Below, one piece after another: positions 16,660 through 62,919 of a stretch of DNA of 64,000 bases. This DNA comes from Thermoplasmatota archaeon. GTDB taxonomy: Archaea > Thermoplasmatota > Thermoplasmata > UBA10834. The notes beneath the pieces were generated by a model. The model saw nothing but the letters and a program-made list of their open reading frames with translations. It ran no database searches and was not told where the DNA came from. The position numbers and the translations under genes are program-made. The stretch is from NCBI GenBank assembly GCA_018818785.1, contig JAHIRF010000008.1:124001-188000 (forward strand). The letters run 5' to 3'. Position 1 is the first letter of the stretch, and every line of letters begins with the position of its first letter.

Positions 16660-18585
16660 TCATAACTGCCCCGCGAATCTCGCCGTCACAATCCTCTCGA
16701 GAGTGTCGAATATGAGAAAGATGCACCCAAGAAGGAAGAACATTCCAATGAATGGATAGATGACATAGTCCCATCCTCCCGTCGCCATCATCGAATACGT
16801 GTATGCCCGATACACAGCTGTCCCCCAGCTGCTCGTATTGGACACGCCTATGAAGTCGCACATGAAAACTGCAAGTACTATCATCGGCATGCCGTATTTG
16901 AGGCCGCTAATCGTCCACGAAAGCACAGAGGGGACTGAGCGCTTGAATGGCACGGAGTGCACAGATTGTCCCTCGAGCTCGCCACCCTTGGAGACCATTC
17001 TCTCTCTCGAAGATACGAAACCGAAGTAGACGAGCAAAGCGATAAGAGCCGCAACCGGCAGCACTAGATCAGTGGAGATTTCTAAGTATCCAGAAAATCC
17101 TGGCCGGATCAATGATCTGTTTGCGATCACCATGATCCCGACTAGGCACACCAGTGGCAGTGCGACCAAACCCTGCATGGCGCCGGTCACCAAGCCATCG
17201 GCGTATGGTCTGATCAACCCTGCAACGATTCCGATGGAAATCCCTATCACAGATGCCATCAAACCTACTAAGAGAGGGACGGCAACCATGGCGGTTGCGC
17301 CATCCAGGAATAATTTGGAGGGTGAATAGATGTATGGCACGACAATCTCATCGGACGATATCGCAGGGCCGATAATTGCGAGCACCACGAACCCCAGATA
17401 GATGATGAGTGCGACCATACCTACTGGACTCCTTAGGTAGTCTCTAGCCAGTCCAGCCATGACTTTCAGGGTCTTAGCCGGCATAGGCGATTGTGTCGGG
17501 ACCTGGTCTGTGGCTGAGCTATCAAGGTCCTCTTCGAGCTCATCAGAGTTCTGGAGTTCGTAAGAATCCAGCTTGCGGCCTGGTCTGAGCAACATCACGA
17601 ACAGGTCCAATAAGAAATTCGTGAGGAATACTATGATCGCCATGAGGAAGAACGATGCCTGGAGCACAAAGTAGTCGAATCGATATAGGGATTGAATGAA
17701 CAGGAAACCCAGGCCAGGATAGCTGAAGAACACCTCAATCACAAACACGAAGCACATGGACATGGCGATCAGGAATTGGATATTGGGCATCGCGGCGAAG
17801 AGGCCGTCCATGAACCTCGGATTCTTCGATGGATAAGTCAGCGGAATCTTCGAAGTTCGTGAGTGACCGTCCCTGATCATGAGTGCAAAGGCTCCGATCA
17901 TGGACATGGATATGATCAAAATCGGGAGTGCCGCATGTCGAGCATAATAGTACAAGAGTTCGAGCGAGCCAGCCGATTCATAATCGTATGGGAGACATCC
18001 ACCCCCAGGAAATAGACGCAGTGAAAAGACAAGGTAATAATAGAGTACCCAAGCGGATGCGATGACTGGAACACAGAACATCGCCAAAGGAACGAAGGAG
18101 GCCACTTGACGAGACACATGAGCTCTCATTCTGGATATCAGACGACCGATAAACGAGCCGATAAGAAGTGCAATAGATAGGGATGCGATGAACAGAATCA
18201 GGGTCCTGCCCATAAAATCATAGATGAAGCCTGAAATCGCGGAGCGATGTATGTAGCTATAATGGAAATCTCCGCTGAGCATGTCACCGATGAATTCAAA
18301 GTATTGTTCGAACAGAGGTTTATCCACCAAAGCCATAAGCCGGTGGACCTCTTCGTCATCCAAGGACATACTAGGATTACGCGGCATCACTAGATTCGCG
18401 ACGTCGTCTGGCATGACCCTCAGGATCACGAACTCCGCCGTAAGTATCACAATCATGCCGACAGCTAGTATCAGAAGTCGCTTAAGTGCAAATTCGCCGA
18501 CTCTATTCACGCCGCCCCACTCCAGATTCCCAACAAGGGATGGTTCACTTGATATTTCTTGATTATCGTGGATGTCCAATCGCAT
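16660..18585 (-). CDS. Fused DppB-DppC-like oligopeptide ABC permease
   Basis: The 641-residue protein combines two permease-like halves. Residues about 30-345 resemble DppB (an N-terminal helix, a large periplasmic loop, then five helices ending in FFSYPGLGFLFIQSL). Residues about 370-641 resemble DppC. A charged, acidic linker (LQNSDELEEDLDSSATDQ) joins them. The cytoplasmic EAA coupling loops are not recognisable in either half: the expected stretch reads SRTSKIPLTYPSKNPRFMDG in the first. No binding protein or ATPase is adjacent, so the partners must be elsewhere or the protein has changed role. Confidence 0.75.
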   Translation of the reverse strand: MRLDIHDNQEISSEPSLVGNLEWGGVNRVGEFALKRLLILAVGMIVILTAEFVILRVMPDDVANLVMPRNPSMSLDDEEVHRLMALVDKPLFEQYFEFIGDMLSGDFHYSYIHRSAISGFIYDFMGRTLILFIASLSIALLIGSFIGRLISRMRAHVSRQVASFVPLAMFCVPVIASAWVLYYYLVFSLRLFPGGGCLPYDYESAGSLELLYYYARHAALPILIISMSMIGAFALMIRDGHSRTSKIPLTYPSKNPRFMDGLFAAMPNIQFLIAMSMCFVFVIEVFFSYPGLGFLFIQSLYRFDYFVLQASFFLMAIIVFLTNFLLDLFVMLLRPGRKLDSYELQNSDELEEDLDSSATDQVPTQSPMPAKTLKVMAGLARDYLRSPVGMVALIIYLGFVVLAIIGPAISSDEIVVPYIYSPSKLFLDGATAMVAVPLLVGLMASVIGISIGIVAGLIRPYADGLVTGAMQGLVALPLVCLVGIMVIANRSLIRPGFSGYLEISTDLVLPVAALIALLVYFGFVSSRERMVSKGGELEGQSVHSVPFKRSVPSVLSWTISGLKYGMPMIVLAVFMCDFIGVSNTSSWGTAVYRAYTYSMMATGGWDYVIYPFIGMFFLLGCIFLIFDTLERIVTARFAGQL

Positions 18586-26110: not shown

Positions 26111-28792
26111 CTAACATAACAATGTATTGCGCAATTTTGCGCATCCGTGTCCCATCGGGAGTAGCATCGTCTCTGCAGCCCTCAGCAACAGCTCCACATA
26201 CGCGCTAGCATCGTATTCTTCGTATCCTGTGAGCAGGATCTCCGCCCTAACCCTCTCTTCTAGATCCTTGCTCTTCGAGGCTGTAATGACGTATCCTATG
26301 CACTCACCTGGCTTCACATCGATACCCTCGTCGCTCAGCTGGGACAACGCCGCGACAGAGTCGTTCAGCTGTGTGTATCCGTCGAGCGGTTTGGATACCT
26401 TCTTCGTGAGTACCAACTTATTCATGGGGATTGTGCCCGATTTGATGTCATCGACATATCTTTCTATGACTTCCAATGCTGCTGGCACGAGCCTCTTCAA
26501 ACCATCTGCGTCGTCCGCTTGAGAGAAACGATCGAGGACATCTGTCTGCATGTCCCTCACGATTCCTGGTGTGTCCCTGCGTCTCAACTCTATGCCCCTC
26601 AGCTTCAACTTCCCGTTCTCGAACATGCCGTAGTACCTGTTCAGGACGCCGACGCCGTTCGTCTTGTCAGGCAGGAACACGATCCATTTGTAAACCCCTT
26701 CGGGTTCGAGCGGTATGCCTATGTGCCCGGAGGCATGCTCGCAGAACCTCTCAGGGTCCCCTGTGCCCTTGAGCCAAAGTGAGTCGACTATACCGTGGAG
26801 TATCTCGAACCCGTGGGCCTCGGCTATCTCGGATGCCTGGAGCAATATCTCCCTTCCGTAGGCGTTGATCGCCTCGTGACATTCTATTCGCCCGAACCTC
26901 GCGTTCTTGTATCCAGTATATCCGAAACAGTTGTGCGTGAGTATCCCGTTGGAGAGAGCGAACCCGTGCATCGGTCCATCCACCGAGAAACAGTAGACGT
27001 GTCGGCCAGATGTCTCGGTCCTACTGACGGAATCTATCCTTACCTCGGACAGATGACGGCCCCTCCTCGCCTCTGGGTCGTAGAGCGGGAGTATTCGCGG
27101 GACCAGGTCTCCCGCGGCCAGCGAGTCCGCACGTCGCACCTCCAGCACACTGCCATCGAAAATGTAACTGGGATGGTCAGGAGTCACCACGATACGGTCC
27201 CCATCGATAGTAAGCTCCACCATCTCCTCGGGCGCTTCGAATCTGAACGCGGTCACCGCTGATTTCATAGCGGGTTGCTGGTATCGGTCCAGGCCGAACA
27301 GGTTCAACGAACCTCTAACCCTGTGCTCGCCACACCCTCTTCCGGCCACCCTGTCGATGATGTCCCGTATCGCCTCGATCCCGAACCTGCCGTCGAGCTT
27401 GAACGGTATCTCCGTGGACCCGTCCAGGCAAGTCACAAGGAGCCATTTCAGTATGTCCACGCGCTCCTTGTAGTCTTTCGTGTCCCCTACGCCGTCCCTC
27501 ACCCGCCTCTTCAGCGTCGTCCTGCGGTCGACCACTGGTTTCAGGACCCTAGGTATCAGCCCATGTCTCCTGTCGCATATGCCATATCCAAGCACGGGCA
27601 CTCTCATGGATGGCTCGGGACAGCAGGAGCACATGATCGTCTCGGGCGAGATGTTGAACTTGGCCATGATGTTCGGATAGAGCGATGTGAAGTCCACTTC
27701 GAGCACATGGTCATGGACGCCGACTACTGGCTCGTAGATGAACCCGCCCCTATCCGCCAATATCAACTCCTGCGCAGTCTTGAACCCCTCTGGCAGGTTC
27801 TTCTTCCACAGCACTACGCATCCATCCTTGAGCGCCTGGTTCACTTCCATCGCGCTGATAGCGCTCCCGGGCGACAGACGCGCCAGCTCCTGGACAGGCA
27901 CCGAAGATATCCTCGAGAGGTCGATAAGTCCGTTCAACCCACTCTCGACATACATGAACGAGCTGGTCTTGTCTATGTGGATTCGCCCTCTGAGCTTGTA
28001 CGATGGTGGCTTGTACTTGATCTGGCCATATGTGAAGTACGACTTGCCTCTCCTATCCGTGTTTAGGTCGTCATCGTCCCGACCGAGGCGCAGGCGGTCC
28101 ATGCCAATCTGCTTGGCCTTGTTGTATAGGTAAGGTATGTCGAATATGTCTCCGAATTCTGTGCATATGATATCTGGATCGAGTCTGTCTAGGGTATCAA
28201 CGACCCCTTTCAGTACCCGTTCCTCGTCTCCGTCTATCGTGGTGTCGCCCACCCTCGCGGATACGAGCTTGTCGTCCATGGCCGGCATCCTGTTCTTCGC
28301 AGCCACGGACACATTCAGTTCCGCGCTTGTCAACGGTGGCTTCTCGTAATCTAAGGCGAAGCGGTCGTCGAGCATGGCCGGTTTCGGCTTCAACTCCATC
28401 AGCCCGAGCGGGAAGATATCCTTCTCATGGAAGAACCGCTGGCTGAAACGCAGGTCTACGTTGAACAAAGAGTATCTCTTGTATTTTCCGCGATTGTCTA
28501 TCGTGTGGGCGACGTCCTCTATCCTCGAGAACTTCCTTATGCCGATGCCGAGCACCTCGCGCGGCTCCTCGCCCAACCAGGTACTCTTCATCTCGCGCTC
28601 AACATTCGCTACAGCGTCCAATATCGGGAGCGCCTTCTCCAGCTCATCCATATCGTCTCTGGACGAGTGCGCGAATATCTTCGGCACGAACGAACGCTCG
28701 ACGATCTTGTGCGCTCCCTTCCTGGTCTTGATCCAGTAGACGATGGAGTTGTCCTTGTAATCGGGATATATGTCGAGCAGCCAGCCCCTCAT
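26111..28792 (-). CDS. B-family DNA polymerase (divergent, PolB2-like) interrupted by a mini-intein
   Basis: The 893-residue precursor gives a 726-residue polymerase after splicing. Motif A is EVDFTSLYPNI (365-375). Motif B is KWLLVT joined to CFGYTGYKN across the intein. Motif C reads HGIVDS (666-671), keeping the second catalytic Asp but lacking the first of the usual GDTDS. The exonuclease region keeps FDIPYLYNKA, but the DIE motif is replaced (LNVSVAAKN) and Exo III is not recognisable, so proofreading is probably lost. Its start overlaps the stop of a small protein gene, itself overlapping a RecA-like gene. A role in translesion synthesis or repair, rather than replication, is inferred. 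Confidence 0.88.
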   Translation of the reverse strand: MRGWLLDIYPDYKDNSIVYWIKTRKGAHKIVERSFVPKIFAHSSRDDMDELEKALPILDAVANVEREMKSTWLGEEPREVLGIGIRKFSRIEDVAHTIDNRGKYKRYSLFNVDLRFSQRFFHEKDIFPLGLMELKPKPAMLDDRFALDYEKPPLTSAELNVSVAAKNRMPAMDDKLVSARVGDTTIDGDEERVLKGVVDTLDRLDPDIICTEFGDIFDIPYLYNKAKQIGMDRLRLGRDDDDLNTDRRGKSYFTYGQIKYKPPSYKLRGRIHIDKTSSFMYVESGLNGLIDLSRISSVPVQELARLSPGSAISAMEVNQALKDGCVVLWKKNLPEGFKTAQELILADRGGFIYEPVVGVHDHVLEVDFTSLYPNIMAKFNISPETIMCSCCPEPSMRVPVLGYGICDRRHGLIPRVLKPVVDRRTTLKRRVRDGVGDTKDYKERVDILKWLLVTCLDGSTEIPFKLDGRFGIEAIRDIIDRVAGRGCGEHRVRGSLNLFGLDRYQQPAMKSAVTAFRFEAPEEMVELTIDGDRIVVTPDHPSYIFDGSVLEVRRADSLAAGDLVPRILPLYDPEARRGRHLSEVRIDSVSRTETSGRHVYCFSVDGPMHGFALSNGILTHNCFGYTGYKNARFGRIECHEAINAYGREILLQASEIAEAHGFEILHGIVDSLWLKGTGDPERFCEHASGHIGIPLEPEGVYKWIVFLPDKTNGVGVLNRYYGMFENGKLKLRGIELRRRDTPGIVRDMQTDVLDRFSQADDADGLKRLVPAALEVIERYVDDIKSGTIPMNKLVLTKKVSKPLDGYTQLNDSVAALSQLSDEGIDVKPGECIGYVITASKSKDLEERVRAEILLTGYEEYDASAYVELLLRAAETMLLPMGHGCAKLRNTLLC
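26930..27430 (-). other. Mini-intein (167 residues) in the DNA polymerase
   Basis: Precursor residues 455-621. Block A begins with Cys in CLDGSTEIPF. Block B is VTPDHPSY, with the TxxH pattern. Block F is HVYCFSVDGPMHGFAL. Block G ends NGILTHN, followed by Cys622 as the +1 nucleophile. There is no LAGLIDADG or HNH endonuclease between B and F, so this is a splicing-only mini-intein. It splits polymerase motif B immediately before the residue equivalent to Ser of the classical NSxYG. Confidence 0.92.
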
Positions 28793-29064
28793 CTATCGGA
28801 CTCACCGCTCCAAACACTCCCATCCTCTTCCGAGCATTCGTTCTTCTTCCTCAGGGCGAGCAACTCTTTCTCGTGTTCCAGGAGCATCGAGAGCAGAGCG
28901 GACTCCGTCGGGTCCATGCTTATCGCGTATGTCGCAGCAGAGGCGTGCATGCGGGCCCTGTTCATCAGCGAGTCGAAAGCCACCCTGTCATCCTTCCTCA
29001 GCGCCCTTCTGAAATCGTTCCATTGCCTGGCCATCGCCTCAAGTGCTAGGCGATATGTAGGCAC
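28789..29064 (-). CDS. Small conserved helical protein encoded between RecA-like and polymerase genes
   Basis: The 91-residue protein, from GTG 29064 after GGGGAGGAC, begins MPTYRLALEAMARQWNDFRR. It is almost entirely helical, with an acidic/Ser-rich tail. It overlaps the polymerase start by four bases (ATGA) and the 3' end of the RecA-like gene by 26 bases, so the three are translationally coupled. I know similar short proteins next to archaeal polymerase genes but no assigned function. An accessory or bridging subunit is inference. A GTG at 29088 is an alternative start. Confidence 0.7.
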   Translation of the reverse strand: MPTYRLALEAMARQWNDFRRALRKDDRVAFDSLMNRARMHASAATYAISMDPTESALLSMLLEHEKELLALRKKNECSEEDGSVWSGESDR

Positions 29065-29835
29065 CGTCCTCCCCGTCGTGATCACCACCGTACTCGTCTA
29101 ACGTGGACTGGTTCCACGGGACCGGATGGAATAGTGTGGACCTCCCCTCCTTTGGTAGATTGAAGACGGTCCCATCCTTCTTCTCTTTCATGTGGATGAC
29201 GCGATCAGCCTGGACGCGTATCAGCGCAGTCAGCCTGTTGTCCGTTCTACCATATCCCGCGGTGTGGTCCGTGACGAAAGATATGGTCTCATGCTCCTGG
29301 GTCATCCTCCTTATGTCGTCTACGCACCTCCTCAGTAACTGGTACGATTCCGCCCACTTCATGTCCTTGTCCTGGAAGAGGTCTGTGAGCGACGACACTA
29401 TTACCACAGCAGGAGTGCTCTCGATGATCTCCTGCTCGAGCTTTTCATCTATGAGCGTGACGAGTTGGTATGCCGTGAACGCCCGCGAGATGTTCACCCT
29501 GGAGAGCACATCCCTCTTGTCCATGCGCATCTTCTTGCACAGGGCGCTTATCGAGTACGGATCGACCGTGTTCCCGCCGTCGATCCACACGACCTCCTCG
29601 TCGAACTCATGCACCGCTTTGACGCATAGTAGATGAAGTAGGGTGGACGCGTAGCCCGTATCCCCCTCGAACAGTACCAATTCTGATGCCCTGAAGCCGC
29701 CTACGAGCCTGTCCAGGGGCGCGACCGATGTTCGGAGTACACGCTCGACATGCAGCGTTTCCTCTTCGAACTCGTGCGCTAATGGATGGACCTGAGCGTA
29801 GGCTGGCCTATGGTCGTGCGTGGTATCACCGGCAT
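29039..29835 (-). CDS. RecA-superfamily protein without Walker residues; apparent frameshift near the 5' end
   Basis: The RecA-like core includes LDRLVGG, GDTGYASTL in place of Walker A (no Lys), WIDGGN, SRAFTAYQL and VVIVSSLTD in place of Walker B (no acidic residue). ATP hydrolysis is therefore unlikely. In the core frame the first usable start is TTG 29680, yet similarity continues upstream (LRTSVAPLDRLVGGFRAS) to about 29783. A well-placed ATG at 29835 after GGAGGAT opens a frame that ends 18 codons later at 29779-29781. A one-base shift between 29783 and 29807 would join them: either a sequencing error or a broken N-terminus. It is comparable in design to bacterial ImuA. Confidence 0.68.
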
Positions 29836-30126
29836 GATTCTATCCTCCGCGCGGGAGTTAAAGCGATAGCCTGGGGAGGGCGGTGAAACTAGTCATGATA
29901 GATGCACGCACCCGCGTCATATCCCCCAATACCTTATGGGACGTCTCAAGCTCTTGACCGGCGGGTCTTCCGATGGGGCACAAATCGGGTCAGTGGTGCA
30001 TTGCGCCAGCATGATCGGGAATTTTGTCCCGATTGTAAACCATAAACCAATGTTTAAGTATCCATAGCATGCTCTTTAGCGATAGTCCAGCAGCTGAAAG
30101 GGACTGGCCCGGAAGAGTTGAGATAT
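29836..30126. promoter_or_regulatory. Divergent promoter region with palindrome (RecA-like/polymerase operon and coiled-coil ATPase)
   Basis: For the plus-strand gene TTTAAGTA at 30053-30060 is a TATA box; a perfect inverted repeat ATCGGGA-attttg-TCCCGAT at 30014-30033 lies 20 bp upstream of it, where an activator could sit. For the minus strand a weaker CTTTAACT lies near 29858-29865. The rest of the 290 bp shows no gene. Confidence 0.5.
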
Positions 30127-32979
30127 ATGGCGCCCAGATCGACTAAGAAGAAATCATCTGCGGCGACTGCGCCAAAGATCACTTCACGAGTCCGTGACAA
30201 GTATTCTAGTGATATCGAAGCCTCAGAGGCACCAAGGTCCAGGAAGGCAGCGATGCTCCAACTGAGGATGGGGCGGTTGGCACATGTCCTGGGCATAGCA
30301 TCCGGACTCGCTCTGGCCGTCACCGCGGTCCTCGCATATCTTCTGGAGAACTGGAGCTATCTCACGGACGCTCCCGAGTTCGTGACCGCGTTGAAATGGG
30401 TGGTCCCGCTCGTCGGAGGCCTGGCCGTTGCAATAGTCGCGATAGCGATGAAGTGGGAGCCGTACTTCGCGGACCGCACAGACCCGCATTTCATAATGAG
30501 CGCCGCATCGGTCGCGGTGCCCTCGGTTCTGATTGCCCTAGTGGCCCTAGACGAGGGCGGGTACATCGCCATTGGTCGGCCAGATTGGCTCTATTCCGTA
30601 TCGTTGCTCGGCATGAGCTTAACCTTGATCTCATTGGCGATGACCTGGGAAGGCACCAGTCGTCGCAAGATAATCAGCATAGCATCCGCGGTGTTCCCTC
30701 CAGTCCTTCTGATATTCCCCATGTTGTTCAGATTCACCCCGCTCGAGCTGGCCAGCATACTGCCCATGGCATACCTGGGCAGCGCGGTGTCGATCCAGTT
30801 GAGCGGTTCGATGCTCCACATAATCGCGAGCTCCACGAACGTCCAGGAGCGCGAGGTCCTGAAGGCGAGCGACGGGAAGCTCAAGATGATCATAGTGGAC
30901 GTCGAGAAGCGCAAGGAGGCGCTCGAGTACAGAGAGGACGCGCTACGTTCAAGGGAATCGGACCTGGAGGCCTACGAGAAGCGTCTGTCCGAGGAGCTGG
31001 CATCGATCGATGACGGAAAGCGGCAGATTGAGTCTATGGAAGCGGAGCTCCAGCAGCGCATCAATCAATCCAGACGAGCAGCCGAGGAGCTTGCGCGGAA
31101 GGATGTCGATAACGAGGGCAAGCTGGACACATTGCGCTTGATGCAGGCAGACATCGACGTGCAGAAGAATACGCTCGATAAATCGCTCAAATTGATATCG
31201 TCCAAAGAACAGAAGTTGGCGGCAAGGGAAGCAGAGGCCGAGAAGGTGCTCCTGGACGTACACGCTAAGGAGCGCGATGCCCGAGCGAAGTTCGGCGACG
31301 CCGGAGCTCAGGAGGCCGAGCTCGAGCTGTGGGCGAAGGAACTTGACGCGCTGAAAAGATCTCTCGCGGAAAGGGAGAAGCATCTGAGCATGAGGGAGAA
31401 CTCCCTCGACATGAAGAGCGTGGAACTCATCGCAGCGAAGGAACAGCTGGGCAAGGTCGCAGCAGAGAGGAACATAGTTAAGAGCATCGAGCAGCAGCTC
31501 CTGCTGAAGCAGGAATCTGTCGCCGAGAAAGAGATCTCTCTACGGGAGAAAGAGACCTCGCTCAGGATGGCCTCTGAGCGCGCACAAAGGCTGATAGAAC
31601 GCTCGGACAAACAGATGAACGAGCTAGTAGACAAGGAGAATACATTACTCAAGCGCGAGAAAGCCTTCGCAGACCGGGAAGCGGAGCTGAGGAACTCGAT
31701 GAGCAAGCTCAATACCCAGCTGGAGGAGATCGAGCGAGCGAAGGATTCCGCGGGCGAGAGGGAGAAGCAATACCTGTCACTTTCCGAGAACACCAGGACC
31801 AAGATCGCCAGCGTATCAGCAAAGGAGCAGGAGCTCAGCAGGAAGATGGCCGCCCTCGAGAGACGCGAGTCGAGCATCAAGGACCTGGAGCAACGGATCA
31901 GGGCCGAGCAGGAACAGATGAACTCGAAGTTGAGGACTCTGCTCGAGAGGGAGAAGGGTCTGAAGGCTGACGAAACGAAGATGACACTCAGGAGCGCAGA
32001 GCTGAAGGCCCGTGAGAGGGACATGCTCCGGTCGGTCGAGGATGTCGAGAGTGCGCGTGCCGAGATATCACCTGCAGATGATCATTCAAAAACGATAGAG
32101 CTGCGCGAGAGACGCCTTCGGGAGAAGGAGCACGAGATGAAGGCCCGGCTCTACCAGCGTGAGAAGGAGCTGGAGAACCGCGAGCACGCCCTTCAAGCGC
32201 ATCTGATGAAAGACCTGGACGAGAGCACGGAGGTACAGGAGGAGCAGAAGGAGGCGAAGGTCAAGACAGGCATAGAACGTCTGGACGATCTGCTGCTCGG
32301 TGGTATGCCGTTCGGGTCCAACATCCTGTTCGCAGGTCCGCCGTTCATAGGCAAGGAGACCGCCATGCTTCTGTTCATAGCCGAGGGACTGAAGAAAGGT
32401 GTGCCGGTCATGATCGTGACCACCTCCAAGCCGCCAGTCGAGATAGCCAAGGACATGGCTCCGATAATGCCCACATTCATGGAATTCGAGCAGCTGGGTC
32501 TTGTGAGATGGATCGACGCTACAGGTCTTCCGATAGATCCGAACAGCCGCAGGAGCAATGTCTTCAAGACGAAAGGTCAGGACGATTTCGATGGCATCCT
32601 GAAAGGTCTGGACGAATCCGTCAAACTGTCCATGTCCAGCGGGAAATCATACTTCAGGTTGGCGTATTTGTCGCTCTCTATGAGCATCACAGGCAAGGAT
32701 GATAAGCGGTCGTTCCAGTTCGTGCAGGAGTTGACCAGCAAGGTCCGTCAACATCAGGCAGTGGCCTCTTTCGCCGTGGAGAAAGGAATGCACACCGACC
32801 AGCAGCTAAACTCGATCCAGCATCAGATGACGGGCGCGGTCCACTTCAAGAGCGAGAAACAGAAGACTCTGTTGAGTATCGAGGGGATATGTGATGCCCA
32901 GACACGGGGCTGGATCGATTACAGGCACACGAACAAGGCAATCCTTATGGGAGCATTTTCACTCGAGAGGATAAGATAA
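30127..32979 (+). CDS. Membrane-anchored coiled-coil protein with C-terminal KaiC/RecA-like domain
   Basis: The 950-residue protein has three parts. Residues about 1-50 are basic and cytoplasmic, and about 50-230 hold five to six helices. About 240-700 form a long, highly charged coiled coil rich in repeated REKEL/EREK heptads. About 715-950 form a KaiC-like ATPase domain beginning GIERLDDLLLGGMPFGSN. Walker A is GPPFIGKET (737-745), with Glu where KaiC has Thr or Ser. The Walker B position (FRLAYLSLSMSI) lacks the acidic residue. The architecture suggests a membrane-tethered structural ATPase, for chromosome anchoring, signalling or motility. No described family was recognised. ATG 30127 is preferred to TTG 30118. 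Confidence 0.75.
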   Translation: MAPRSTKKKSSAATAPKITSRVRDKYSSDIEASEAPRSRKAAMLQLRMGRLAHVLGIASGLALAVTAVLAYLLENWSYLTDAPEFVTALKWVVPLVGGLAVAIVAIAMKWEPYFADRTDPHFIMSAASVAVPSVLIALVALDEGGYIAIGRPDWLYSVSLLGMSLTLISLAMTWEGTSRRKIISIASAVFPPVLLIFPMLFRFTPLELASILPMAYLGSAVSIQLSGSMLHIIASSTNVQEREVLKASDGKLKMIIVDVEKRKEALEYREDALRSRESDLEAYEKRLSEELASIDDGKRQIESMEAELQQRINQSRRAAEELARKDVDNEGKLDTLRLMQADIDVQKNTLDKSLKLISSKEQKLAAREAEAEKVLLDVHAKERDARAKFGDAGAQEAELELWAKELDALKRSLAEREKHLSMRENSLDMKSVELIAAKEQLGKVAAERNIVKSIEQQLLLKQESVAEKEISLREKETSLRMASERAQRLIERSDKQMNELVDKENTLLKREKAFADREAELRNSMSKLNTQLEEIERAKDSAGEREKQYLSLSENTRTKIASVSAKEQELSRKMAALERRESSIKDLEQRIRAEQEQMNSKLRTLLEREKGLKADETKMTLRSAELKARERDMLRSVEDVESARAEISPADDHSKTIELRERRLREKEHEMKARLYQREKELENREHALQAHLMKDLDESTEVQEEQKEAKVKTGIERLDDLLLGGMPFGSNILFAGPPFIGKETAMLLFIAEGLKKGVPVMIVTTSKPPVEIAKDMAPIMPTFMEFEQLGLVRWIDATGLPIDPNSRRSNVFKTKGQDDFDGILKGLDESVKLSMSSGKSYFRLAYLSLSMSITGKDDKRSFQFVQELTSKVRQHQAVASFAVEKGMHTDQQLNSIQHQMTGAVHFKSEKQKTLLSIEGICDAQTRGWIDYRHTNKAILMGAFSLERIR

Positions 32980-33024: not shown

Positions 33025-34005
33025 ATGAGGATTGTGGGCACTTTGATATGTCTCGGAAACGGCATCTTGGTCGAAGTCGATGGCCGTCGGTATCGTCTGG
33101 ATCCACGGAGGACTACCGTTGATGATACGAATGTGATATCCCATGCGCATACCGATCACATACCGCGATCGTTCAAGACGCTGGATGTGACCTGCTCCGA
33201 GATAACGCGCGATTTCGCAAGTGAACGATGCCGAAAGGATCTGCGGGCCATCAAGGACGACCATGTGGAACTCGTGGACGCTGGTCACATACCTGGATCT
33301 ACGATGTGCCGCATCTCTGGGAGCAGGAGGGTCGTATATACCGGTGATTTCTGCGTGCGCTCCAAAACTCATACAGATGGCGCGAAGCCCTTGAGCTGCG
33401 AAGTGCTCGTTATGGAAGCGACATACGGTAAGCCTCGTTACAGGTTCCCGGATCATTCTGAAGTCGTGTCTGCCATGAAGGACTGGGTCTCTGAAGTCCT
33501 CCATTCGGGGTCGTCCGCGATATTGCTCTCATACCCTCTCGGGAAATCACAGGAACTCGCATCAATATTCCGCGAGTTCCCCATCTTCTTCCATCCCGCC
33601 ATAGCATCATACAATCGAATCCTGCGCACGCATGGTTTCGACATCCCGAGCGAACCGTTCGAAGACATCAAGGGCGGCTCACCGATAGTCTATGTCTCAT
33701 CTGGCCTCGGCAAGGATAGCAGCAGGGTGCAGACGATGCGCAAACGTGGAGCGAAGACCGCTGCATTCTCCGGATGGGCAGTCGATGGCATGTTCGGCGG
33801 TCGATCGTCCTATGTCGACCGCGCGTTTCCCCTATCGGATCACTGCGGCTACGACGAACTGCTGTGGTTCGTCAAGAGGTGCGCACCGGAGGTCGTGTAT
33901 ACGGTCCATGGGTTCGCAAGGGAGTTCGCAGGATCCATAAGAAGTGAGCTGGGCATCGATGCGCGTCCATTGATCGCCAATCAGAGGATGATCGACCAGT
34001 TCTGA
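33025..34005 (+). CDS. SNM1/DNA-ligase-associated-type metallo-beta-lactamase nuclease
   Basis: The 326-residue protein has the metal motif SHAHTDHIP (HxHxDH), then DAGHIPGST, VVYTGDFC and a C-terminal LSDHCGYDELL...VYTVHG. Together with MEATYGKPRYRFP and LSYPLGKSQE, these match the putative exonuclease family found with archaeal-type DNA ligases in bacteria and related to SNM1/Pso2 and beta-CASP nucleases. It probably processes DNA or RNA ends with two zinc ions. It follows the coiled-coil ATPase gene by 45 bp and is likely in its transcript, extending the repair-island picture. Confidence 0.82.
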   Translation: MRIVGTLICLGNGILVEVDGRRYRLDPRRTTVDDTNVISHAHTDHIPRSFKTLDVTCSEITRDFASERCRKDLRAIKDDHVELVDAGHIPGSTMCRISGSRRVVYTGDFCVRSKTHTDGAKPLSCEVLVMEATYGKPRYRFPDHSEVVSAMKDWVSEVLHSGSSAILLSYPLGKSQELASIFREFPIFFHPAIASYNRILRTHGFDIPSEPFEDIKGGSPIVYVSSGLGKDSSRVQTMRKRGAKTAAFSGWAVDGMFGGRSSYVDRAFPLSDHCGYDELLWFVKRCAPEVVYTVHGFAREFAGSIRSELGIDARPLIANQRMIDQF

Positions 34006-60240: not shown

Positions 60241-61350
60241 TCAGCGCACGAAGTCCATGCCATGTTTGGCGGTGTTCTGGGGATCGGGGGACAACAGCTG
60301 CGGGCTCTTGACTCCCGTGAGGACGACCATGACCCTCATGAGTCCGTCCATTGCCGGGTCCACGCTGCAACCCCAGATTATCCTCGCGTTCGGATTGATC
60401 TTCGCGTTGACGAGTTCGGCCGCCTTCTCCGCCTCAGAGACGGTCATGTCCGGTCCGCCCGTCACCCTGATCAGGGCGCCCCTCGCACTGGATAGGTCGA
60501 TATCTCCCAGGAGCGGCGATTCGAGCGCCTGTCTAACTGCGCTGTCCACGCGGTCTCCTCTCGAGGAAGTCTTGTTGTCCGCCTCGCCCATTCCTATGAG
60601 CGCGACGCCGCCGTTCTTCATGATAGTCATGACATCGTTGAAATCCAGGTTGACGAGCCCGGGTTTGGTGATTATCTCGGTGAGCCCCTTGATGGATTCC
60701 ATCAGGACTTCATCGGCCACTCTGAAAGCAGCGTCCAGTGGCAGTTTGGGGACCAGCTCCAGAAGCTTGTCGTTCGATATGACCGCGGTGGTATCGCAAT
60801 TCATCCTGAGCCGGTCTAGACCCCTGACCGCGTTCTCCATGCGGATCTTGCCCTCGGCTTTGAATGGCATAGTGACTATTCCGATCGTTAGAGCGCCGGA
60901 TTCCCTGGCCATCCTCGCGACGACTGGTGCGGACCCAGTGCCCGTGCCGCCGCCCATACCGGCAGTGACGAAGACGATGTTGGACCCCTTCACGTACTGT
61001 TTCAGGTCCTCTTCGGATTCCATCGCGGCTCTCTCGCCCACCTCGGGGAGTGCTCCTGCGCCCAACCCCTTCGTCAAGGTCTTGCCTAGGAGAATCTTGT
61101 GTGGCGAATGGATATGCAACAGGTGCTTGGCATCGGTGTTCGCGGCGACAATGTCGGCACCGAAAATGCCCGATTGCTGGAGGCGGTTGACCGTGTTGGA
61201 ACCTCCGCCTCCACATCCTACGATAGTTATGTTCACCTTCAGCTTCTCGACTATCTTGGCAAGTTCCTCATCCTCGGGAATGCCCATCTTGTCCTTCGTG
61301 CTCTTTTCCGTCGCGTGCAGCTCGAGAGCATCATCTATGAGTGATTTCAT
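60241..61350 (-). CDS. ftsZ: Cell-division GTPase FtsZ, paralogue next to rnp2
   Basis: This 369-residue tubulin-like GTPase has a GTP-binding G-box GMGGGTGTGSAP (about residues 130-141), the T7 catalytic loop GLVNLDFND, and an N-terminal extension of about 35 residues before VNITIVGCGGGGSN. It polymerises into the division ring. The protein ends GMDFVR, nearly identical to the end of the divergent paralogue. It overlaps no gene but is followed by rnp2 after 5 bp, so division and RNase P genes share a transcript. Confidence 0.96.
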   Translation of the reverse strand: MKSLIDDALELHATEKSTKDKMGIPEDEELAKIVEKLKVNITIVGCGGGGSNTVNRLQQSGIFGADIVAANTDAKHLLHIHSPHKILLGKTLTKGLGAGALPEVGERAAMESEEDLKQYVKGSNIVFVTAGMGGGTGTGSAPVVARMARESGALTIGIVTMPFKAEGKIRMENAVRGLDRLRMNCDTTAVISNDKLLELVPKLPLDAAFRVADEVLMESIKGLTEIITKPGLVNLDFNDVMTIMKNGGVALIGMGEADNKTSSRGDRVDSAVRQALESPLLGDIDLSSARGALIRVTGGPDMTVSEAEKAAELVNAKINPNARIIWGCSVDPAMDGLMRVMVVLTGVKSPQLLSPDPQNTAKHGMDFVR

Positions 61351-61710: not shown

Positions 61711-62919
61711 ATGCCGAAATCACTTGTCAAAGACGCATTGGGAAAAGACGTGCAAGAAATTATCGAGAAATCTTCTCAACAGCCCGAACAGCAGGCGCAT
61801 GCTTCACAACCTGCGCCTATGTCCGCGGACGATGAAGAGATTGCCAAGATCGCGGAACAGCTGGATGTTAGCATCAAGATCATAGGCTGCGGTGGTGGCG
61901 GATCGAACACCATAAACAGGTGTGTTGAGGGAGGGATCTCAGGAGCGCAGTTGTGTGCCATAAACACGGATGCCAAGCATCTGCTGGTGATACACGCGCC
62001 CAAGAAGATATTGATCGGAAAGAACATCACGCGGGGCCTGGGTGCCGGCGCGATACCGCAGGTCGGAGAGGCCGCCGCGAAGGAGAACGAGCGCGATATA
62101 CGCGATTTCCTGAACGGTGCCAACATAGTGTTCGTCACCGCAGGCATGGGTGGCGGAACAGGTACTGGCTCGGCACACTTCGCTGCAAGGCTCGCGAAGG
62201 AGATGAAGGCACTGACCATCGGAGTCGTCACCCTCCCATTCAAGGCTGAGGGAGAACTCAGGATGGATAACGCCCTTGACGGGCTGGAGAGGCTGAGGAG
62301 ACTCTGCGACACAACCATCGTGATACCGAACGACAAGCTCCTGGAACTGGTCCCGAAGCTACCAGTCGATGCTGCGTTCAAGGTTGCTGATGAGATACTG
62401 ATGCAGACCATCAGAGGCCTTACTGAGATCATAACGAAGCCCGGACTGGTCAACCTCGACTACAGCGACATAATGACCGTCATGAACGAGGGCGGAGTGG
62501 CCTTCGTAGGCATGGGCGAGTCGGAGGACACAGACGCCGAGGAGAGGATCCAGTCCGCAGTGGATGAGGCTCTTAACTCTCCGTTGCTGGGCGAGATCGA
62601 CCTCGGAGACGCGAGGGGTGCGCTCATCAGGGTAGTCGGTGGACCGGACATGACCGTCACCGAAGCTCAGAGGGCTGCGGAGGTCGTCGGTGAGAGGATC
62701 AACAAGCATGCGAGGCTCATCTGGGGATGCAGTGTGGACCCGGCCTACGAGGGACAGGTCCGCGTGCTGCTGATCGTGACCGGTGCGAAGTCGACCACAT
62801 TGATCGGCAAGAACCACAACAGCGTGGCCTCCGACAAGTCGAACAATGACAGGCCTTCAGCTGCACCATCGCGATCGTACGGGTCCGATGACGACTCTGG
62901 GATCGACTTCGTGAGATAG
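61711..62919 (+). CDS. ftsZ: Cell-division GTPase FtsZ, second paralogue
   Basis: The 402-residue FtsZ has G-box GMGGGTGTGSAH, T7 loop GLVNLDYSD and a Gln/Ala/Pro-rich N-terminal extension of about 50 residues. A Ser/Asn-rich linker (SVASDKSNNDRPSAAPSRSYG) precedes the C-terminal GIDFVR. Archaea with two FtsZ use one for ring assembly and one for constriction; which is which cannot be decided here. The linker and end peptide are suited to binding SepF. Confidence 0.96.
   Translation: MPKSLVKDALGKDVQEIIEKSSQQPEQQAHASQPAPMSADDEEIAKIAEQLDVSIKIIGCGGGGSNTINRCVEGGISGAQLCAINTDAKHLLVIHAPKKILIGKNITRGLGAGAIPQVGEAAAKENERDIRDFLNGANIVFVTAGMGGGTGTGSAHFAARLAKEMKALTIGVVTLPFKAEGELRMDNALDGLERLRRLCDTTIVIPNDKLLELVPKLPVDAAFKVADEILMQTIRGLTEIITKPGLVNLDYSDIMTVMNEGGVAFVGMGESEDTDAEERIQSAVDEALNSPLLGEIDLGDARGALIRVVGGPDMTVTEAQRAAEVVGERINKHARLIWGCSVDPAYEGQVRVLLIVTGAKSTTLIGKNHNSVASDKSNNDRPSAAPSRSYGSDDDSGIDFVR

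Follow-up and report, generated by a model that had tools for sequence, protein, structure and literature searches.

KaiC-like domains, inactivated members included, have been proposed as signalling hubs of archaea, and iKaiC, DUF835 and MEDS are described as inactivated KaiC-like signalling domains (Galperin et al., 2018, PMC5847659, in the part of that article available to us). The fold also occurs in KaiC-like single-domain proteins of the RecA superfamily, such as PH0284 (2dr3) and SSO2452 (2w0m). We analysed a window of 64,000 nucleotides from a Thermoplasmatota archaeon (genome of 1.97 Mb in 12 contigs; nearest named records are MAGs of uncultured Thermoplasmatota) that encodes a 950-residue protein with this fold in its C-terminal domain, here termed KaiC*. 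Compared with PH0284 and SSO2452, KaiC* has lost the Walker-A Ser/Thr and the Walker-B Asp and is borne on a membrane-anchored coil. It resembles the iKaiC-type domains of archaeal proteins in being KaiC-derived and in lacking the ATPase residues, but the protein differs from iKaiC, DUF835 and MEDS proteins, as the accessible portion of PMC5847659 presents them, in having no REC, PAS or histidine-kinase parts, in its own GKE signature, and in its six-helix anchor and very long coil. This is a new architecture inside the known KaiC-like superfamily and not a categorically new one; the sequence-only reading recognised no such architecture, and of the whole protein only the KaiC domain could be assigned to a known family. 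For this widespread, well-conserved and unnamed protein of uncultured archaea, the analysis sets out an anatomy, draws the limits of its family and offers a role open to experiment. Its features within the window are the following.

30127..32979, + strand: gene for the 950-residue membrane-coil-KaiC* protein (ORF list, alignment of orthologue starts)
30053..30061, + strand: possible TATA-like TTTAAGTAT ahead of the gene, picked out by eye
30244..30831, + strand: six-helix membrane domain, residues 40-235 (AlphaFold2 (AF2), profile A2, hydropathy)
30838..32226, + strand: coiled coil, residues 238-700 (heptad period, fixed His-to-P-loop spacing)
32257..32976, + strand: KaiC/RecA-fold domain, residues 711-950 (Pfam, AF2, Foldseek)
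32335..32358, + strand: altered P-loop GPPFIGKE, residues 737-744, with Glu for Ser/Thr (alignment)
32662..32682, + strand: Walker-B-equivalent strand AYLSLSM, residues 846-852, with Asp replaced by Leu 848 (alignment)

The open reading frame spans 30118-32979 when counted from a TTG, with an alternative ATG at 30127; we favoured the ATG because most aligned orthologues begin with MAP or MSP there. Differences from the nearest orthologue at codon positions 1/2/3 were 0.26/0.10/0.52 in the transmembrane (TM) part, 0.27/0.19/0.45 in the coil and 0.24/0.16/0.46 in the KaiC part, a pattern as under purifying selection. The gene is real and conserved, and it appears to be under purifying selection. 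Some match was found in 38 of 40 relatives, with full-length homologues in families f1, f2, f10 and f15. A membrane-domain profile matched 23 of 100 genomes of the class and 10 of 292 genomes of the phylum, all ten of these in class Thermoplasmata (further matches lie at G003:C54, G007:C1:780038 and G009:C44:127780), and the KaiC* domain alone was found in 79/100 class and 94/292 phylum genomes (E <=1e-20). Judged by these searches, the protein is conserved in many uncultured Thermoplasmata of several families and is not a one-strain oddity, so that the absence of conservation beyond one strain, named earlier as a refuting outcome, is excluded. A literature search, with subscription papers mostly outside its scope, returned no paper with this architecture in its title or abstract. 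In a 55-row tree of a quick kind, which carried a warning of long outgroup branches, the 18 TM-type rows formed one clade (SH-aLRT 100), sister (94) to a clade of 18 soluble coil rows (88). Given the single TM-type clade, the simplest reading would be that the membrane fusion arose once.

By profile and predicted fold, the C-terminal domain is a member of the KaiC-like superfamily. Residues 712-830 match Pfam KaiC PF06745 (45.7 bits; cut-off 26.6), residues 696-950 were modelled by AF2 as a KaiC/RecA fold (pLDDT 93.9, pTM 0.92), and the best Foldseek match of the model was 2dr3 (PH0284; E 7e-14), so that the RecA/KaiC-fold domain called from the letters was confirmed both by structure prediction and by profile. 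Against NCBIfam FlaH PRK06067 the protein scored 25.4 bits (cut-off 194), and an archaellum ATPase (ArlH/FlaH) was dropped as a candidate on that score. The atypical Walker motifs were as described, GPPFIGKE and no Walker-B acid (L848), and they hold across the family: Glu replaces the Walker-A Ser/Thr (GKE) in 54/54 aligned coil-type KaiC domains, and the Walker-B Asp is present in 0/54, its substitutes being L (30), R (16), M (4), F (2), T (1) and I (1). KaiC* also lacks the Glu that usually follows the second strand. Neither the active-type Walker A (GxxxxGK[ST]) nor the Walker-B Asp was found, whereas of seven ordinary KaiC relatives that this genome contributes as rows to the alignment, five keep GKT and Asp, the remaining two (L004, L005_644) not aligning as P-loops.

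The catalytic role of these Walker-A and Walker-B positions is well established for KaiC. Since the residues that split ATP are missing, a scaffold is more probable than an enzyme, and KaiC* is most likely a pseudo-ATPase scaffold, as far as alignment and model allow. The suggestion of an ATPase in the sequence-only reading thus fails on losses that are family-wide. A KaiC fold would here have been turned into a near-invariant pseudo-ATPase. GKE occurs in 73 of 75 unique domains (GKR and GKG once each), so the motif is not subject to drift; Gly and Lys of the P-loop are retained as well, from which we infer that the nucleotide pocket is probably under selection. The Glu at the metal-coordinating position could mean unusual nucleotide chemistry rather than none, and several short relatives still carry the Walker-B Asp. 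An active, unconventional enzyme in which this Glu takes a catalytic or metal role, acting as a membrane-bound ATPase or nucleotide sensor, is nevertheless unlikely in view of the complete loss of that Asp from the coil-type domains.

The coil described earlier as very long and charged was recovered over residues 238-700 (44% charged, one Pro). Residues 241-700 show a 3.50-residue period with a power of 13.1, against 8.8 for the 99th percentile of 100 shuffles; among six sub-windows of 80 residues, just one rose above its own 99th percentile. If the helix is continuous, simple arithmetic gives a length of up to ~69 nm. The spacing between the P-loop and a conserved His that ends the membrane domain measures 506-508 residues in 11/11 homologues with KaiC identity >=55%, and 428-508 residues in all 34 homologues measurable by motif search. 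Coil identity among the 11 is only 43-57%, and a length fixed despite this is what one would expect if the coil runs unbroken and has to keep its register. Such a fixed length would also suit membrane rods that form a cortical mesh shaping or stiffening the cell, cytoskeleton-like or mechanosensory, with KaiC* only an oligomerisation cap, and a paracrystalline S-layer is missing from cultured Thermoplasmatales (PMC12448462, in the part available). We consider this mesh quite unlikely: KaiC* is the best conserved part of the protein, the three proteins most distant from it sharing 46% identity vs 17-30% for the coil, which is beyond a cap's needs. A profile search found the membrane domain in 0/9 genomes of family f6. 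A chromosome-segregation protein of the SMC type was a separate candidate; TIGR02168 gave 21.5 bits (cut-off 567; best stretch residues 443-720), far below a full-family match with an ABC head, and it was dropped.

At the N-terminus, a basic 40-residue tail precedes the membrane domain. Hydropathy gave five segments >1.6 for the window protein, and between four and six at the N-terminus of the other 15 aligned proteins; AlphaFold2 modelled six long helices (pLDDT 89.5, pTM 0.82), in keeping with the tether of five to six helices first proposed. The N-terminal stretch holds 13 K/R, and the three loops predicted to face outward hold 0, 1 and 1; with this positive-inside pattern and an even number of helices, both ends of the protein are probably cytosolic. 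No Pfam family matched the membrane domain above cut-off, NCBIfam showed no family for this part of the full protein, and a Foldseek search of the model against the PDB gave nothing at E <=0.001 (best E 0.059). The best VIA-align 2 match was a designed helical barrel at Z 9.9, a value within that program's stated range for common helical arrangements. On these outcomes we claim neither a relative nor a new fold. BLASTP placed the same domain in extended DppC-type permeases of family f1 (L135, L136, L137), in one or two copies (two in L135; E 4e-18 and 7e-14), joined to BPD_transp_1 and OppC_N (Pfam) and lacking both coil and KaiC. A membrane domain common to permeases, with no Pfam family above cut-off, is hereby defined. 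The window itself encodes a BPD_transp_1 permease (16660-18585, - strand) that the membrane-domain profile does not match; its 641 residues are longer than usual for that family.

The flanks of the gene are as noted from the letters, with divergent polymerase genes at 26111-29680 (- strand) and a nuclease at 33025-34005 (+ strand). The former encode three proteins, namely PolB, one of 99 residues and one that is Rad51-like but in which no P-loop could be recognised; their arrangement is the iRadA-PPB2-PolB2 order described for the PolB2 mutasome (PMC11791011, available part). In family f1 the order runs iRadA-PPB2-PolB2 (divergent), window gene, nuclease, TruB-type pseudouridine synthase, a kinase-like and a SecY-like gene (the last two labelled by eye), with a gap to the Rad51-like gene of 224 to 4678 nt across seven loci. 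The nuclease follows on the same strand 23-64 nt downstream in 10 family-f1 loci, the window included, and this spacing is what speaks for a partner of the flanking nuclease or of the PolB2 mutasome in DNA or RNA repair. Homologues outside family f1 have other neighbours and lack both the PolB genes and the nuclease, and the composition proposed for the mutasome, as given in the accessible part of PMC11791011, includes no membrane-coil-KaiC*-like protein, which leaves such a repair role very improbable. As a mutasome component proper the protein was dropped, since the neighbourhood holds only within f1; the neighbourhood conservation looked for after the first reading is thus found there and fails in other families. 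Around TM-type homologues from other families, a search for shared neighbours turned up no recurring functional partner that lends itself to interpretation. The PolB frame (26111-28792, - strand) reads HGIVDSLW at motif C by eye and contains an insert that resembles an intein, with a subthreshold Pfam Intein_splicing score of 20.7 bits (cut-off 35.8). Two divergent FtsZ genes adjoin elsewhere in the window (60241-61350, - strand; 61711-62919, + strand).

The same genome encodes a soluble paralogue of 793 aa (L002:397-2778) with a zinc ribbon, a helix-hairpin-helix (HhH) domain (HHH_5, 52.5 bits, Pfam), a coil and a GKE-KaiC domain. This sister type shares the coil and KaiC* and differs in having no membrane helices, in its zinc ribbon, in the HhH carried by many members and in WLxGE repeats, seen by eye in its relatives. 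The earlier idea of a membrane anchor for DNA found no direct support, PolB being a neighbour only in f1, and survives indirectly because the soluble sister carries the HhH domain. Such a membrane-to-nucleoid tether, in which TM protein and soluble paralogue hetero-oligomerise via coil and KaiC* while zinc ribbon and HhH bind DNA, would fit the divergent DNA-repair operon of family f1 and the presence of the soluble type in 21/23 TM-type genomes vs 76/100 class genomes. That co-occurrence is weak, being only nominally above expectation (hypergeometric P 0.04, a value that ignores phylogeny) and broken by G065 and G072; the count does not take G081 and G094 (short KaiC* forms, family f18) as soluble coil type, nor G011 (a 101-residue TM-type-like KaiC fragment) as TM-type. 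HhH is, moreover, not obvious by eye in some soluble members (e.g. L120, L125, L126), and the PolB neighbourhood is absent from other families, so we hold the tether to be rather unlikely. Adjoining the soluble paralogue is a gene for a 145-residue protein without Pfam match (L002:2794-3231, - strand), relatives of which were seen close to the soluble paralogue at 10 loci, for the most part convergently and no more than 100 nt away. The soluble type is likewise found in L126, from a MAG named Aciduliprofundum. A Thermoplasmata-type soluble paralogue also occurs in L117 (CP070807.1), labelled Candidatus Omnitrophota, which is probably a mislabelled bin or a transfer.

Elsewhere in the phylum, 28 loci with short GKE-KaiC genes were compared: a KaiC::Ras/Arf-GTPase fusion adjoins the gene at 22 of them, and 19 encode a Roadblock protein. 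Roadblock proteins regulate Ras-like GTPases in bacteria (PMC4316618, available part). The three-gene set is present in all 17 examined f30/f53 loci (L201-L204, L247-L259) and in L216 and L217; L218, L219 and L261 have the fusion, L219 with a V4R protein alongside. Six loci with no fusion in the stretch analysed were counted as misses (L260, L262, L263, L264, L266, L212), some of these stretches ending near the gene, and L265, a stretch that does not cover the target gene, is outside the 28. The GKE KaiC domain of the Roadblock - KaiC::Ras/Arf GTPase - GKE-KaiC operon is homologous to KaiC*; it differs in being short and soluble, in keeping the Walker-B Asp where checked, and in having the GTPase and Roadblock encoded alongside. 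Most short relatives read GKE or GKD with Asp kept (L201-L204, L219), L218 reads GKA with Asn, the short forms of family f18 have lost the Walker-B Asp and have a variable P-loop, and the coil-bearing forms are without both active-site features; with such intermediate states, the losses seem to have come in steps.

That the window protein is a pseudo-ATPase anchored in the membrane is well supported; which proteins it would scaffold we infer. The explanation we prefer, tentatively and at somewhat less than an even chance, is a membrane-anchored pseudo-ATPase scaffold of Thermoplasmata whose KaiC* docks partners from a GTPase/Roadblock network. The chain would form a parallel coiled coil holding KaiC* tens of nanometres off the membrane, and KaiC* would dock partner proteins without hydrolysing ATP. 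The most likely partners would come from an archaeal signalling network made up of Ras/Arf-like GTPases, Roadblock/V4R regulators and further KaiC-like domains, among which the simplest relatives of KaiC* are encoded. Within class Thermoplasmata, one of the proteins bound directly may be the soluble zinc-ribbon/HhH-coil-KaiC* paralogue. We gave this network more weight than the tether to DNA, the cortical mesh or the unconventional enzyme because the short relatives are encoded with GTPases and because KaiC-like hubs have been proposed (in the available portion of PMC5847659). The signalling-module context of the short relatives does not extend to the window gene or its orthologues, beside which no GTPase or Roadblock gene recurs, and the KaiC::GTPase fusion occurs in only 2/40 relatives, neither in f1; the signalling link is therefore one of domain ancestry alone. 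As most short operon relatives keep the Walker-B Asp, their mechanism may also differ from that of KaiC*.

The window's genome does encode Ras-like GTPases (L241, L242) and two Roadblock proteins, the kinds of protein that an MglA/MglB-type polarity system would call for, none adjacent to the window gene. This Ras-like GTPase/Roadblock toolkit is usually discussed for bacterial polarity and for Asgard archaea, and its association with the GKE-KaiC domain is here brought to light across the phylum. A more speculative extension, to which we give a small chance, is that the anchor shared with oligopeptide permeases and the fixed-length rod present a dead KaiC to the DNA-binding soluble twin and to Ras-like GTPase and Roadblock proteins, coupling the membrane, and possibly the uptake of nutrients, to where the chromosome lies or to the polarity of the cell; if true, an archaeal polarity or tethering system would have evolved from KaiC and not from ParA, MinD or SMC. 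In L201, L202 and L204, a response regulator lies beside the Roadblock/KaiC::GTPase/GKE-KaiC operon. In the window's genome, a Ras-like GTPase gene is followed by one for a V4R-DUF835 protein (L241:5477-6915), a further case in which a Ras-like GTPase is paired with a KaiC-derived domain, as DUF835 is listed in the available part of PMC5847659.
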